Shown here: piece by piece, positions 24,375-30,634 of the stretch
How positions within the stretch are numbered: the stretch's first letter is position 1
How the letters are laid out: every line of letters starts with the position of its first letter
From: Flavobacteriia bacterium
GTDB lineage: Bacteria; Bacteroidota; Bacteroidia; Flavobacteriales_D; Crocinitomicaceae
Reading direction: 5' to 3'
Assembly (NCBI GenBank): GCA_947450325.1
Contig: CANFUT010000006.1
Span: forward strand, 1 to 64,000
Length of the DNA stretch: 64,000 nucleotides
Position numbers and translations under genes: made by a program
Notes under the pieces: generated by a model
Seen by the model: the letters and a program-made list of their open reading frames with translations, nothing else
Databases searched by the model: none
Told to the model about the DNA's origin: nothing

Positions 24375-25157
24375 ATGAAGAAACTTTATAAGTTTTTAAT
24401 CAATACGTTACCTCGACCTTTGTTGATTAGGTTGAGTTATCCTTTCAAGAAAGTAGCTCCATTATTATACAAAGGCAACAATGTTACTTGTCCGGTTTGT
24501 GAACGCAATTTTAGCAAGTTTTTGTCTTATGGTTCAGAAGTTACGCACAGAGATAATGTGCTTTGTCCGTATGATTTGACGCTTGAAAGACACAGATTGA
24601 TGTGGTTGTATTTGAAAAATGAATCCAATTTTTTCACTGCGGAGAAATTGAACGTTTTGCACATCGCTCCAGAACAATGTTTTCACAAAACTTTTAAAGC
24701 GCAACAAAATTTAGCTTATTTGACGGGTGATTTACTGTCACCAATCGCAGATATGCATTTTGATTTGCACAGTATTCCTTTGGAAGACAATCGTTTTGAT
24801 GTTGTTTTTTGTAATCACGTACTTGAACATGTAGACGATGCTTTGCAATGTATGAGAGAACTACATCGCGTGATGAAACCAGGAGGTTGGGGAATCATGC
24901 AAGTTCCACAAGACATGACGCGTGAGGTAACTTATGAAGATCCAACAATTGTGACTCCAGAAGACAGAGAAAAACATTATTGGCAGTACGATCACGTTAG
25001 ATTATTTGGTAGAGATTATCCAAATTGGTTGAAAAAAGCAGGTTTTGAAGTAAAAGAGTTCATTCCTTCAGAACATTTTTCAGATGAACAAATTGACCGT
25101 TATCGATTGATGAGAAAAGAAATTTTATACATAGTTAGCAAATCGTCAAATGATTAA
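24375..25157 (+). CDS. SAM-dependent methyltransferase with N-terminal cysteine motif
   Basis: A 260-residue class I methyltransferase (Methyltransf_11 type). Before the SAM domain is a probable metal-binding stretch with CPVC (Cys39, Cys42) and Cys64 in VLCPYD. The SAM domain has VLHIAPEQ, DLHSIPLEDNRFDVVFCNHVLEHVDD and the MKPGGWGIMQVP strand. It ends inside the MbnP-like gene (8 bases overlap), which makes it the first gene of a three-gene operon. The target could be a small molecule or a protein; unknown. Confidence 0.85.
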   Translation: MKKLYKFLINTLPRPLLIRLSYPFKKVAPLLYKGNNVTCPVCERNFSKFLSYGSEVTHRDNVLCPYDLTLERHRLMWLYLKNESNFFTAEKLNVLHIAPEQCFHKTFKAQQNLAYLTGDLLSPIADMHFDLHSIPLEDNRFDVVFCNHVLEHVDDALQCMRELHRVMKPGGWGIMQVPQDMTREVTYEDPTIVTPEDREKHYWQYDHVRLFGRDYPNWLKKAGFEVKEFIPSEHFSDEQIDRYRLMRKEILYIVSKSSND

Positions 25158-26121
25158 AAAAAGTATTTTTTCAATATTTTTGGGTTTTACTATATTTGTG
25201 AATGCACAAAATCCATTGCTTTTAAATTTTAGATTTTTAAATGGCAATGCTACATTTTCATCTCTTGTAGCAATACCTGATTTAAATGGAACTTATTATC
25301 AAGCGCATGATATTGCATTCTACATTTCTAAACTAAAAATAACACACGATGGTGGACAAATTTTAGATTTTCAAGATTCCGTTTTCTATGTAAACAAAAG
25401 AGCGAGTCTTTTTGATTTAGGTTTGCAAAATGTTGATTTAGTGGAATCTGTTGATTTTCAAGTGGGCGTTCCTGCATCAATTAATCATTCTGACATTACG
25501 GCGTATCCTGTTAAGCATCCGTTATATTTTCAAAGTCCTGCCATGCATTGGGGTTGGGCTGCTGGATATACATTTTTACTGATTGACGGTGAAGCAGATA
25601 ACAATGGAGATAATATTACCGATGTTCCTTTTGAGTTACATTGTTTAGGTGATTCAAATGTTCAGCAAGTTCATGTTATAAATACTGCAACCATCTATCC
25701 AGATGGGACCAGAGAAATTTTTCAAAATGTTAATATTGATCAATGGTTACATGATGTAAATTTATCAACTTTAGATATCCAACACGGTAGTACTGGAATC
25801 AATGCGGATGTGATGATGAACGTGCAGAACTATCCAGTTTTTACAGCACCTTTGAATGCAAATGTAAATGTAATTTCGAACGTAATTGGTGAAGCTTTTT
25901 TTCTTCAAAATGGAAAAGAATCTTCAATCAGCTGGAAAGGAATGAAAAATTTGGAAAAAGTGCAATTAATTGACCTTTCAGGAGCAGAAGTAGATGAATT
26001 TTTATCCAAAGATATAAATGGAAAATGGCAGATGTCAAATTTGAGCAGTGGCGTTTATTTTTTGCGATTTGTCAGTGATTCAGGTCAATTGTTGAATCAA
26101 TTGAAAGCAGTGCAACCATGA
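25150..26121 (+). CDS. MbnP-family copper-binding protein with T9SS-type C-terminal domain
   Basis: A 323-residue exported protein (signal peptide to NAQ, residue 20). Residues about 22-230 fit the MbnP-like domain: LNFRFLNGN at the start, then the hallmark HWGWAAGYTFLLIDG with His133, Trp134 and Trp136. In characterised methanotroph MbnP, a tryptophan is oxidised to kynurenine by MbnH and the site binds copper. The last 70 residues (LIDLSGAEV, then SSGVYFLRF) look like a type IX secretion sorting domain. The MbnH homologue follows with 4 bases overlap. Confidence 0.82.
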   Translation: MIKKSIFSIFLGFTIFVNAQNPLLLNFRFLNGNATFSSLVAIPDLNGTYYQAHDIAFYISKLKITHDGGQILDFQDSVFYVNKRASLFDLGLQNVDLVESVDFQVGVPASINHSDITAYPVKHPLYFQSPAMHWGWAAGYTFLLIDGEADNNGDNITDVPFELHCLGDSNVQQVHVINTATIYPDGTREIFQNVNIDQWLHDVNLSTLDIQHGSTGINADVMMNVQNYPVFTAPLNANVNVISNVIGEAFFLQNGKESSISWKGMKNLEKVQLIDLSGAEVDEFLSKDINGKWQMSNLSSGVYFLRFVSDSGQLLNQLKAVQP

Positions 26122-27113
26122 ATTTGTTGAGAAAAATCAATTTGCATATATTATTGATTTTCTCAATAATATCTTTGATTTGTCTTAGATGTTCAGTTTC
26201 AAAATCAGATTTTGTGAGTCCTTTAGGCGTAGCAAAATTACCAGTTGACAATCCATTAGATACCGCGAAAATTGCTCTTGGAAAAGAGTTTTTCTTTGAT
26301 AAAAGATTGTCTATAGATGAATCTATTTCTTGCGCCGTATGTCATAAACCAGGTTTAGCGTTCACCGATGGATTAAAATTTAGTGATGGTGTTTTAGGAA
26401 GAAAATCGGGAAGAAATTCTCCAACTTTATTAAATGCTGCTTTTCTACCGAAAGTGATGTTTGACGGAGAGATACCAACTTTAGAAATGCAGTCAATCGT
26501 GCCTATTCAAGACCGCAATGAAATGGGAATGGACATTAAAGAATTATTAGTTCGACTGAAAGCAGTACCAGAATATCAAGCAGCAGCTAAGCGAATTTTC
26601 AATCGCGACATGGACGTTTGGGTACTTTCTCGTTCTTTAGCTGCCTATCAACGAAGTTTGATATCAGACAATTCACCTTTCGATAAATTCTATTATGGAA
26701 AAAAGAAAATGGCGATGAGTGCCTCTGCCAAACGCGGTTGGACGATTTTTTCTGAAAAATTATATTGTACAAAATGTCATCCTGCGCCTTATTTTACAAC
26801 TTATACAGTAGAAAATAATGGTTTGTTTGAAGCTTATCCGGACAATGGAAGATTCAGAATCAACAACGATTCTACTGAGATGGGGAAATTCAAAGTTCCA
26901 ACGTTGAGAAATATTCAAATTACAGATCCTTACATGCACGATGGTTCGTATGAATCTTTATCTGATGTAATCGATCACTACGCGTCTGGAGGAAAAAATC
27001 ACAAAAACAAATCTTCAATCATTCAACCTTTTACGTTAACAAAAAAGGAGAAAAATGATTTGATTGAATTCTTATATTCGTTGACGGATATGAGTTTCAT
27101 GGAACGACTTTAA
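26118..27113 (+). CDS. MbnH/MauG-type dihaem cytochrome c peroxidase-like protein
   Basis: A 331-residue exported protein of the dihaem peroxidase family (CCP/MauG/MbnH). Two haem c motifs are present: CAVCH (72-76) and CTKCH (217-221). Family segments GKEFFFDKRLS, FDGEIPTLEMQ and DPYMHDGSYESL are in order. Next to an MbnP homologue, its likely job is oxidising the MbnP tryptophan rather than only destroying peroxide. The N-terminus is hydrophobic with cysteines at 22 and 25, perhaps a lipoprotein. Confidence 0.85.
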   Translation: MNLLRKINLHILLIFSIISLICLRCSVSKSDFVSPLGVAKLPVDNPLDTAKIALGKEFFFDKRLSIDESISCAVCHKPGLAFTDGLKFSDGVLGRKSGRNSPTLLNAAFLPKVMFDGEIPTLEMQSIVPIQDRNEMGMDIKELLVRLKAVPEYQAAAKRIFNRDMDVWVLSRSLAAYQRSLISDNSPFDKFYYGKKKMAMSASAKRGWTIFSEKLYCTKCHPAPYFTTYTVENNGLFEAYPDNGRFRINNDSTEMGKFKVPTLRNIQITDPYMHDGSYESLSDVIDHYASGGKNHKNKSSIIQPFTLTKKEKNDLIEFLYSLTDMSFMERL

Positions 27114-27135: not shown

Positions 27136-28128
27136 ATGGTACAAAGACGGACATTTATAAAATGGGGTGCGATTGGAGCACTAGTTGGAATAGTGAAGCC
27201 ATCTTTGGCCGTTGAACCACTTGGGAAAGGATTGCGAAGAATGGCGATCACACCAAAAGTTATTTCCACATGGGAACACGGATTGGCAGCAAACAAAGCG
27301 GCTTGGGAAGTGATTTCTGCAGGCGGAAAATCGATTGATGCTGTTGAAAAAGGATTGCGAGTGACAGAATCAGATATCACCAATCGAAGCGTTGGAATTG
27401 GCGGAAGACCCGATGAACAAGGTCATGTGACGTTGGATGCTTGTATCATGGATGAAAAATCTCGTTGCGGTTCCGTTGCTTTTTTGGAAGGAATTGATCA
27501 TCCAATTTCAGTGGCACGAAAAGTAATGGAAGATACACAACACGTGATGCTAGTAGGAGAGGGAGCAAAAGAATTCGCTCTTTCAAAAGGTTTTGGAAAG
27601 ATTAAAACGCCACTTCCAGAAGTCAAAAAAGACTATAAAAAGTGGAAAAAAGAACAAGAAGAGTTGGCGAAAAAACCTGCAATCAATGTTGAAAATCACG
27701 ATACAATTGGCATGTTGGCAATCGACAGTTTTGGCAATATCAGTGGTGCTTGTACAACATCTGGTTGGGCTTATAAAATGCACGGAAGAATTGGAGATTC
27801 ACCGATTATCGGCGCAGGTTTGTTTATTGACAATGAAGTTGGTGGTGCTGTAGCAACAGGATTAGGTGAGGCAATTATTCGCGTAGCTGGAAGTCATACT
27901 GTGGTCGAATTGATGCGACAGGGAAATTCTCCTGAGGAAGCTTGTAAATTAGCGGTAGAAAGAATCATTTCGAAACACGAAAATATGGAAGGTTTACAAT
28001 GTGGTTTTATCGCCATTGATAAATTCGGAAATGTTGGTGGTTATTCGGTTTTTAATGGTTTCAATTATGCGTTTACAGATGCGCAAAAACATATAATGGT
28101 TGACACATCGTTTGATAGAAAATGGTAA
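27136..28128 (+). CDS. N4-(beta-N-acetylglucosaminyl)-L-asparaginase (glycosylasparaginase), Tat-exported
   Basis: A 330-residue Ntn-hydrolase. It begins with a twin-arginine signal (QRRTFIKWG, then a hydrophobic stretch), so it is folded before export. The autocleavage site is HDTIG with nucleophile Thr190; the precursor splits there into two chains. Substrate-contact segments such as GSVAFLEGI and the GTGLGEAI-like VATGLGEAII are present. It cleaves the bond between asparagine and the first GlcNAc of N-linked glycans. It lies 22 bases after the MbnH gene and just before a beta-mannosidase. Confidence 0.92.
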   Translation: MVQRRTFIKWGAIGALVGIVKPSLAVEPLGKGLRRMAITPKVISTWEHGLAANKAAWEVISAGGKSIDAVEKGLRVTESDITNRSVGIGGRPDEQGHVTLDACIMDEKSRCGSVAFLEGIDHPISVARKVMEDTQHVMLVGEGAKEFALSKGFGKIKTPLPEVKKDYKKWKKEQEELAKKPAINVENHDTIGMLAIDSFGNISGACTTSGWAYKMHGRIGDSPIIGAGLFIDNEVGGAVATGLGEAIIRVAGSHTVVELMRQGNSPEEACKLAVERIISKHENMEGLQCGFIAIDKFGNVGGYSVFNGFNYAFTDAQKHIMVDTSFDRKW

Positions 28129-28147
28129 TTCATTTTCAGGTTATAAT

Positions 28148-30634
28148 ATGAAGATATTTTTTATTCTACTTTTCTTAAGTTTTCATTGCATGACATTTTC
28201 ACAAAAAAATGAACTTGAGTGGAATTTCTTTCATCCAATTAAAAAAACTTGGTTGCAAGCAGGTAAATGTGGCTCTGTGCAAGAAAAGTTAATTGAATCC
28301 AAAGAATTACCAAATCCATTTTATGGCGAAAATGAAAAACTTTTCACTTGGATTGAAAAGTATGATTGGGAATTTAAATCTTCCTTTACTTTAAATGAAT
28401 CGCAGTTTGCGGAAAAATTCATTGAGTTAGATTTTCCAGGAGTTGACACTTATTCAAAAGTTTACATCAACGATTCATTGGTATTGAGAACGGAAAATGC
28501 CTTTCATCCATATATTCTGCAAATTAAACCGTTCGTAAAAATCGGTAAAAACAATGTGAGAGTTGTATTTACATCTCCTGTCAATTATCACAGAAAGGCT
28601 TTTGAAGCAAAATCGCCTAAACTGCCTGCACCAAATGATTTAGGGGAAATTGCAGTTTCATCGATGTCACGCAAACCTCAGTATCAATTCGGATGGGATT
28701 GGGCGTTGAGAATGAACACGATTGGATTTTTGAAACCTGTACAATTGAGGACATATTCTACAAACAGAATTTTGCTTCAAAAGGTTGCGACTAAAAGTCT
28801 GATTGATAATCAAGCAAACTTGGAATTGTCGCTGATTTGTGCTGTGAAAGCAACACAAAAAATAAGATTTGAAAGTGAGATTTGGGGAAATTTTGACAGC
28901 TTGAATTTAGTCAATGGTGAATTGAAAGTTGACGCAGGATTGTTGAATCCTCAATTGTGGTGGCCACGTGGACAAGGCGAACAATATTTGTATCAAGATA
29001 AATGGAAAATATTTGATTTAGCAGGCAATTTAATCGACAGTTGTTCGGTAACATTTGGTGTCAAAACCAGCGAATTGGTTCAAGAAAAAGATCAGTTTGG
29101 AACTTCTTTTTATCTCAAAATCAATGGTCGTCCCATTTTTTGTAAAGGCGCAAATTACATTCCGCAAGAAGTTTTTCCTTCCAAAATAACGACAGAGTCT
29201 ATCCAAGATTTAGTTGAACAAATGCGTGTTTCGAATTTCAATATGGTGCGCGTTTGGGGCGGAGGTTTTTATCCAGATGAAGCATTTTTTGAAGCGTGCG
29301 ATCGCGCAGGAATTATGGTTTGGCAAGATTTTATGTTCGCTTGTGCAATGTATCCTGGAGATGCGGCATTTTTAGCCAATGTGAAACAAGAATTGGAATA
29401 TCAAGTTCCAAGAATTTCTGCGCATCCATCGTTGGTATTGTTCAATGGAAACAATGAAGTAGATGTTGCTTGGAAAAATTGGGGATTTCAAGTCACCTAC
29501 AAAATTCTGCCAAAAGCGCAGAAATCAATGGAGGAAGATTATCGAAAATTGTTCAAAGAGTTGATTCCAAGTGTTGTGAAAGCGCGCAGTTTTATTCCTT
29601 ATGAGCATACTTCTCCACTTAGTAATTGGGGAAAAGACGAATATTTCAACCATGGAACGCAACATTATTGGGGCGTTTGGCATGGAAAAGATCCAATCGA
29701 AGATTTTGGTTTGAAATCAGGTCGATTCAATGCGGAATATGGTTTTCAATCTTTTCCAGAATTTAATACTTTGTTGGCTTTCAGTGAGAAAAAAGATTGG
29801 GATTTAGATTCAGCTGTCATGAAATGGCACCAAAAAAGCTATGTCGGAAACGGAATGATTAAAAAACAATCAGACATTTTATTTGGTGAGAGCAAATCGT
29901 TTGAAGAGTTTGTTTATTTGTCACAACTGACACAATCAAAAGCGGTATCGATTGCTGTTTCGAGTCATCGTTTGGGTTCTCCGCGATGCATGGGCACATT
30001 GTATTGGCAATTGAATGATTGTTGGCAAGCGCCGACATGGTCTAGTATCGATTATCACGGAAATTGGAAAGCGTTGCAATATTCGGTAAAGCAAGATTTT
30101 GAGGATGTTGCAGTTCTCGAAAAAACGACAAAAATTGGCAGTGAAAAATATTTTATCATATCCGATGAGGAAACGAGTTTTGATTCTCCCTTGAATTGTT
30201 TTATTTACGATTTGCAAGGAAATTTGATTTTCAAAACCATAGATACGCTGACACTAAAACCTGGATTTCAGAAAGAAATTTGCACGGAATGTCAAGCTGA
30301 TTCAATTCAAAATATCAAATATGTTTTAGATGTGGAATGGCAAAACAGCAAAGGTGAAGCAAAGCACAGGACATTTACCCATCTCCCAAATCAACGAAAT
30401 AAGGCACTTATAGAATCATTTCAAGTGAAATTATTGAACGTTGACGAATCGAAAAAAACAGCGACAATTGAAATTGAAAACAAAGAATTTTTGCACAATT
30501 TCTGGATTTATTCAAATAAAAAAGGAGTTCGTTTCTCAGAAAATTTCATCGATTTATTGCCAGGAAAACATCTTGTCGAAATAAGATTCATCGACCTTCC
30601 AAAATTTGAAGATTTTGGTTTTCAATGGTTGTAG
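28148..30634 (+). CDS. Beta-mannosidase (GH2), secreted
   Basis: I start at the ATG at 28148, which begins a signal peptide (FFILLFLSFHCMTFSQ); the product has 828 residues. Domain order is sugar-binding (20-200), Ig-like (200-310), then the (alpha/beta)8 catalytic domain. Acid/base Glu437 lies in FNGNNEV and the likely nucleophile Glu530 in FNAEYGFQSFPE. MVRVWGGGFYPDE and VWQDFMFACAMYP are typical of GH2 beta-mannosidases. It removes beta-1,4-mannose, the linkage at the core of N-glycans, which fits the adjacent glycosylasparaginase. Confidence 0.92.
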   Translation: MKIFFILLFLSFHCMTFSQKNELEWNFFHPIKKTWLQAGKCGSVQEKLIESKELPNPFYGENEKLFTWIEKYDWEFKSSFTLNESQFAEKFIELDFPGVDTYSKVYINDSLVLRTENAFHPYILQIKPFVKIGKNNVRVVFTSPVNYHRKAFEAKSPKLPAPNDLGEIAVSSMSRKPQYQFGWDWALRMNTIGFLKPVQLRTYSTNRILLQKVATKSLIDNQANLELSLICAVKATQKIRFESEIWGNFDSLNLVNGELKVDAGLLNPQLWWPRGQGEQYLYQDKWKIFDLAGNLIDSCSVTFGVKTSELVQEKDQFGTSFYLKINGRPIFCKGANYIPQEVFPSKITTESIQDLVEQMRVSNFNMVRVWGGGFYPDEAFFEACDRAGIMVWQDFMFACAMYPGDAAFLANVKQELEYQVPRISAHPSLVLFNGNNEVDVAWKNWGFQVTYKILPKAQKSMEEDYRKLFKELIPSVVKARSFIPYEHTSPLSNWGKDEYFNHGTQHYWGVWHGKDPIEDFGLKSGRFNAEYGFQSFPEFNTLLAFSEKKDWDLDSAVMKWHQKSYVGNGMIKKQSDILFGESKSFEEFVYLSQLTQSKAVSIAVSSHRLGSPRCMGTLYWQLNDCWQAPTWSSIDYHGNWKALQYSVKQDFEDVAVLEKTTKIGSEKYFIISDEETSFDSPLNCFIYDLQGNLIFKTIDTLTLKPGFQKEICTECQADSIQNIKYVLDVEWQNSKGEAKHRTFTHLPNQRNKALIESFQVKLLNVDESKKTATIEIENKEFLHNFWIYSNKKGVRFSENFIDLLPGKHLVEIRFIDLPKFEDFGFQWL

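Follow-up and report, generated by a model that had tools for sequence, protein, structure and literature searches.

We analysed a 64,000-nucleotide stretch of contig CANFUT010000006.1 from a Flavobacteriia bacterium of the family Crocinitomicaceae (assembly GCA_947450325.1), here called the window, in which three overlapping genes encode a class I S-adenosylmethionine (SAM) methyltransferase (MTase), a copper protein of the MbnP family and an MbnH-like di-heme enzyme. The MbnP/MbnH pair as such is known. The unexpected part is that the tryptophan expected between the two hemes is replaced across the clade of this MbnH, beside MbnPs whose presumed copper-site residues are kept; we make no claim that this is unpublished. 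The identity of the genes, the MbnP fold, the conserved ligand residues, the pairing and the tryptophan replacement are established by the comparisons below.

The three reading frames overlap by 8 bases (MTase/MbnP) and 4 bases (MbnP/MbnH), and all three proteins scored above the Pfam cut-offs (in brackets): Methyltransf_11 at 56.2 bits (21.2), MbnP at 73.5 bits (27) and CCP_MauG at 165.1 bits (25.6). The genes and sites, in window coordinates, are as follows.

24375..25157, + strand: SAM methyltransferase of class I, 260 aa, bearing a C39-x2-C42...C64 motif near the N-terminus (Methyltransf_11)
25150..26121, + strand: MbnP-family copper protein, 323 aa, with a signal-like N-terminus, an MbnP domain (about residues 19-234) and a C-terminal domain (about 247-323) like those of the type IX secretion system (T9SS) (PF20243, AF2 model, 7l6g, TIGR04183)
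25543..25557, + strand: M132-H-W134-G-W136 of MbnP, the Met and WxW expected to form the copper/kynurenine site, with HWGW as residues 133-136 (conservation)
25639..25641, + strand: His164 of MbnP, invariant across distant MbnPs, a likely copper ligand (conservation)
25888..26118, + strand: T9SS-like C-terminal domain of MbnP (profile scores, relatives, fold comparison)
26118..27113, + strand: MbnH-like di-heme c-type enzyme, 331 aa (CCP_MauG, 6e1c, TIGR04039)
26331..26345, + strand: heme site 1 of MbnH, CAVCH, residues 72-76 (Cys, Cys and His in 87/87 aligned MbnHs)
26442..26444, + strand: Phe109 of MbnH, Trp in 6e1c and in all 32 other-group rows (alignment)
26460..26462, + strand: Phe115 of MbnH, replacing the inter-heme Trp found in 6e1c and CCP 3o5c (alignment)
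26739..26741, + strand: Trp208 of MbnH, a clade-specific Trp and possible alternative electron path (alignment)
26766..26780, + strand: heme site 2 of MbnH, CTKCH, residues 217-221 (Cys, Cys and His in 87/87 aligned MbnHs)

An MbnP with a conserved site and an MbnH with a replaced tryptophan

Gene 2 is a true MbnP. Its score against the MbnP equivalog TIGR04052 (47.8 bits) lies below the cut-off of 140, and it was filed in the Pfam family PF20243 instead. Searching the PDB with its sequence gave no relative, and a profile search gave T9SS tails and weak, chance-level rows; the relationship to a solved MbnP was found afterwards, by fold. An AlphaFold (AF2) model of the protein (pLDDT 90.6) was submitted to Foldseek, and the six best matches were the six chains of Methylosinus MbnP, 7l6g; a structure comparison with 7l6g gave Z 17.3 and rmsd 2.8, with 200 residues aligned. 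Residues 247-323 form a separate beta domain. When the protein was aligned with 14 diverse relatives, including the three other MbnPs of the same genome, seven residues were invariant in the 15 rows: G106, M132, W134, W136, G139, Y140 and H164. Similarly, M132, W134 and W136 were present in 47/47 long MbnPs (that of the window included), and H164 in at least 90% of them. In Methylosinus MbnP the first Trp of WxW is reportedly turned into kynurenine, and the copper is reported to lie near a His, a Met and that kynurenine (a PNAS paper of 2021). By sequence, M132, H164 and W134 fit such a site. An earlier note, made from the letters of this DNA, had described the overlapping MTase, MbnP and MbnH genes with HWGW and two CxxCH motifs; the reading frames, motifs and Pfam matches bear this out, as PF20243, the fold match and the conserved site do for its identification of MbnP.

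Other forms of MbnP were seen among the loci sampled (numbered L, their genomes G). Six loci (L221-L224, L237 and L238) carry a further long kind with MDW[GS]W, that is, Asp before WxW; each has one MbnH, with Leu at the inter-heme position, and the MbnP gene is doubled in tandem in L223, L224 and L237. Twelve apparent MbnPs without WxW came from a first profile that included the T9SS tail; a domain-only profile dropped eleven of them and retained the MbnP-like protein of L031 (G104), for which no MxWxW could be found and whose short locus holds no adjoining MbnH.

The best solved relative of gene 3 in a sequence search was 6e1c (E 1.6e-42), named there "Di-heme enzyme", which we take to be MbnH of Methylosinus trichosporium OB3b. 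The score against TIGR04039 was 257.3 bits, below the cut-off of 362.85, which none of the four MbnHs of the genome reaches, ordinary pairs included; we therefore call the product MbnH-like. We aligned 87 MbnHs with 6e1c and the peroxidase CCP 3o5c. Both CxxCH motifs were intact in 87/87 MbnHs, and Tyr272 was kept in 86/87. At Phe109, Trp was found in 6e1c and in 32/32 rows of the other group, and in 0/55 rows of the window's clade. The column of Phe115 is presumably the inter-heme Trp position, an assignment made from the alignment and known structures and not from coordinates. Here Trp was present in 6e1c, in the peroxidase and in 31/32 other-group rows (30 as counted, plus row L036_8625, which keeps the Trp and shows Phe by a one-column shift). 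By contrast, it was present in 0/24 triads (MTase-MbnP-MbnH) of the window's clade, in 0/12 of its rows without MTase and in 5/19 of its MTase-MbnH rows without MbnP. Two other tryptophans appear in the clade, Trp208 in 21/24 triads and Trp168 in 15/24, each in 0/32 rows of the other group.

The same division was recovered by phylogeny. A slower tree of the 87 rows separated the 55-row clade of the window's MbnH at 100/100, and a FastTree analysis of 146 MbnHs gave a clade of 75 (support 0.984) with the Trp replaced in 70; the five exceptions are enzymes of genus g9 encoded beside an MTase with no adjoining MbnP. Trp was present in 65 of the remaining 71 rows. The replacement also goes with the type of MbnP encoded upstream: the Trp is kept in 34/37 MbnHs behind short MbnPs (<300 aa) with M[FYI]WxW (a count that omits three short MbnPs lacking MxWxW by pattern and two short MHWGW rows, of which one is a truncated gene), and in 11/58 where the MbnP upstream is long and carries M[HYQD]W[GS]W, all eleven being of the FFWDGR type. 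The inter-heme residue of L024 and L246, Ala in both, was assigned by eye. All loci were chosen by similarity to the queries, and these figures are counts, not frequencies. Judged by its sequence, the window's MbnH lacks the inter-heme Trp, like most of its clade, a point absent from the earlier note.

The arrangement itself is not due to chance, because MbnH follows in 27/27 distinct MTase-MbnP pairs whose sequence runs on for 500 nt or more past MbnP. In two related operons, both from metagenome-assembled genomes, MbnP identity is 82% (L034, CAMDFX010000001.1, titled "Chryseobacterium gleum", seemingly a doubtful title) and 77% (L035, "Flavobacteriia bacterium").

A proposed mechanism and its rivals

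From these data we infer kynurenine formation, copper binding, a surface location and an electron path, and combine them in a mechanism that has, as a whole, a somewhat better than even chance of being right. MbnP would be exported to the periplasm, where MbnH would oxidise Trp134 of the WxW motif to kynurenine with H2O2 at its two hemes. The kynurenine, with Met132 and His164, would let MbnP hold Cu(I), and the mature protein would then be moved by the T9SS to the cell surface and bind copper there. The MbnH clade would act without the inter-heme Trp, electrons passing directly or through Phe/Tyr and a new Trp such as Trp208. The MTase would be a widespread gene independent of the pair, owing its place here to inheritance within the family. 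Of the functions to be read from the sequences, we still hold conversion of W134 to kynurenine to be the most likely, because the site in MbnP is so well kept. More tentatively, and at clearly less than an even chance, a large Bacteroidota clade of MbnHs may make kynurenine in surface MbnPs without an inter-heme Trp, either by another hole path (Phe/Tyr, Trp208, Trp168) or jointly with a second MbnH that keeps the Trp.

Surface export of MbnP by the T9SS is likely, judging from the genes present. The genome encodes SprA (2393.8 bits), a genome-wide search gave 112 tail matches, 110 of them above the cut-off, and TIGR04183 matches 31/47 long MbnPs at E<=0.001. Where the earlier note had proposed a T9SS-type tail and a surface protein, SprA and a TIGR04183 score above the cut-off make the location plausible, but the Pfam score falls below its cut-off and the tail is divergent.

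Several observations weigh against the mechanism. The tail is borderline, at 25.2 bits for TIGR04183 (cut-off 23) but 24.5 for PF18962 (cut-off 27), and ranks among the weakest of the 112 in the genome; in the fold comparison T9SS tails (Z 8.4-8.7) tied with generic Ig/FN3 folds, and the matches other than MbnP and T9SS tails, mostly common Ig-like folds, were left unused. No evident copper transporter or regulator was found among the 18 window proteins scanned with Pfam. In G109 and G261 the fetched stretches hold MbnP but neither MbnH nor MTase, and 18 of the 40 family loci sampled have MbnH with no adjoining MbnP; a strict need for both genes in cis is thereby excluded. In the two MbnP-only loci (L231 of G109 and L230 of G261) the window-type MbnP stands beside an S9 peptidase-like gene. 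Finally, according to an excerpt of PMC6405878, the inter-heme Trp is present in MauG and in previously characterised peroxidases, and MauG needs it for bis-Fe(IV) stabilisation and cofactor synthesis; its loss could thus mean lost activity. The same excerpt describes BthA, which has Ser at this position, still forms bis-Fe(IV) and turns over peroxide. The absence of the Trp therefore does not rule out the chemistry, yet the usual path is gone.

The main rival, which we consider unlikely, is a two-enzyme arrangement, in which the Trp-less MbnH would serve for docking or in some other non-oxidising role, and the chemistry would be done by another MbnH that bears the Trp, adjacent in some other lineages and in trans here, from one of the three other MbnHs of the genome. 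Where the inter-heme position is Arg or Gly (13 sampled MbnHs), seven are indeed followed by a second MbnH that bears the Trp (L036, L244, L245, L251, L253, L264 and L265). L246 combines an Ala enzyme with a second, Trp-bearing MbnH that lies behind an MFWTW MbnP. Similarly, at 5 of the 11 FFWDGR loci, where a Trp-bearing MbnH lies behind a long MHWGW MbnP, a Trp-less MbnH with Phe lies next to the pair but on the opposite strand (L225, L232, L233, L236 and L240), and the three other MbnHs of the window's genome keep the Trp (L001, L002 and L004). Against this, no second MbnH follows the remaining Arg/Gly enzymes within their stretches (L037-L040, L248 and L256; the contig of L248 carries a further MbnH, on the far side of MbnP), and the heme sites of the Trp-less MbnH are intact. 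Moreover, the Trp-less enzyme is the sole MbnH in the fetched stretch of 23/24 distinct triads, 15 of these stretches being only about 4 kb; the exception, L216, has a Trp-bearing pair downstream of the triad.

Alternatively, MbnH might be only a peroxidase that protects the surface protein, and MbnP might no longer carry kynurenine. The loss in the window's clade of both Trp residues of the other MbnH group would suit this, as would peroxide turnover by BthA. We regard it as improbable, since the invariance of M132, W134 and W136 in the long MbnPs is not expected of a dead site.

The pair outside methanobactin operons and the role of the methyltransferase

A methanobactin operon was rejected as an explanation: MbnB (TIGR04159) had no match in the genome, the precursor gene MbnA not having been searched for. 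The earlier note had placed this pair outside methanobactin systems, and the absence of MbnB from the genome agrees with it. This is the ordinary part of the result. Kenney and Rosenzweig described the MbnP/MbnH pair in 2013 as conserved far outside methanobactin producers, with TIGRFAM models of its own (excerpt of PMC3621798). The genome holds four MbnPs and four MbnHs, all paired, and MbnP was present in 185/199 sampled genomes of the order. MbnPH-like genes also occur in operons headed by the copper regulator CruR (excerpt of PMC9426467).

The MTase (METHYLTRANSFERASE) was found in 190/200 family genomes at E<=0.001, weak matches included. Among the 150 MTase matches listed in the family, 70, from six genera, have a window-like MbnP directly downstream (counted with 137 of the listed MbnP matches, the weakest at the end of the list being left out). 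We also sampled 40 family loci from genomes lacking this pair: MbnH comes directly after the MTase, with no MbnP, in 18, 21 have neither MbnP nor MbnH (among them G210, of the window's own genus), and in the remaining one, L196, MbnP is cut by the contig end. Outside the family, both MbnP and MbnH were absent from 60/60 MTase stretches, which reach up to 4 kb on each side of the MTase (45 of at least 8 kb, 15 shorter, from contig ends). The neighbours there are of other kinds: in another family (L126) the MTase lies between RbfA and a TsaE-AlaDh gene (Pfam), with similar gene sizes in most other loci of that family, and in a third (L130) by a pantothenate kinase. In genus g14 of the window's family (L173) it lies by a PLP enzyme. 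The site shows a stepwise loss, with MTase-MbnP-MbnH, MTase-MbnH, MTase alone, or MbnP alone (G109, G261). The MTase-MbnH loci without MbnP are L166-L168, L171, L172, L180-L183, L185, L188-L191 and L197-L200, L185 being the longest branch of the tree.

Of 136 MTases, 120 retain Cys39, 119 Cys42 and 119 Cys64, and the Cys motif therefore belongs to the MTase family and not to the copper operon. A fold search with the MTase gave class I methyltransferase-like folds alone among the 50 matches listed. At 24657-24674 the unusual motif I of this family (LHIAPE) replaces the usual glycine-rich loop; H96, A98, P99 and E100 were invariant in 56 aligned members.

The MTase is widespread in the order and, judging from its gene distribution, probably a passenger of the operon. 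The earlier note was right about the Cys motif, but the data do not support the MTase as a functional part or give it a dedicated role in copper binding, and the co-occurrence with MbnP that it had asked to be checked holds for the 70 family pairs and for none of the outside-family stretches. We accordingly rejected the MTase as a dedicated partner of MbnP, as it is not conserved beside MbnP wherever it occurs. That it works in the operon, for example by methylating MbnP or a copper ligand, is very improbable: the adjacent pairs in six genera, its place upstream of MbnH in 18 further loci and the overlap of its frame with MbnP speak for such a role, but it is commonly found away from both genes, MbnP persists in G109, where the MTase has no match, and in G261, where its match is only weak, the window's genome has one MTase match against four MbnP-MbnH pairs, and the protein, by inspection, seems to have no signal peptide, whereas MbnP appears to be exported.

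Close 3' of MbnH, at 27136-30634, the window encodes an Asparaginase_2-family protein and a glycoside hydrolase family 2 enzyme, and genes of similar size also lie downstream in L034, L035 and L205. The window contained neither a tRNA nor, at gathering score, any Rfam RNA.

Comparison with known systems

If the large Bacteroidota clade does make kynurenine without the inter-heme Trp, nature would provide an exception to the rule that long-range tryptophan oxidation needs this residue. The occurrence of Trp, Phe, Tyr, Arg, Gly, Leu and Ala at one position offers a natural series for the study of electron paths in Trp-modifying di-heme enzymes. A kynurenine copper site, the results also suggest, may arise in the periplasm before the type IX system displays it on the cell surface. 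A literature search limited to titles and the starts of abstracts, with the 2019 MbnH and 2021 MbnP papers outside its reach, found no description of Trp-less MbnHs or of T9SS-tailed MbnPs.

The pair resembles MbnP/MbnH of Methylosinus trichosporium OB3b in its adjacent genes, its MbnP fold, the Met, WxW and His of the site and a di-heme, MauG-like partner. Unlike that pair, it stands in a genome without MbnB, its MbnP has a T9SS-like tail, an MTase lies upstream, and the inter-heme Trp and a second Trp of MbnH are Phe. As in MopE- and CorA-type systems, described in excerpts of PMC3621798, PMC3912023 and PMC3423442, a probably surface-associated copper protein is encoded beside a di-heme peroxidase; here, however, sequence and fold are those of MbnP, and export would be by the T9SS. 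Like BthA of Burkholderia, the enzyme is a member of the bCCP/MauG superfamily without the inter-heme Trp. BthA has Ser in its place, and the excerpt of PMC6405878 mentions no MbnP partner, whereas the enzymes described here have Phe or Tyr at that position and an MbnP beside them.

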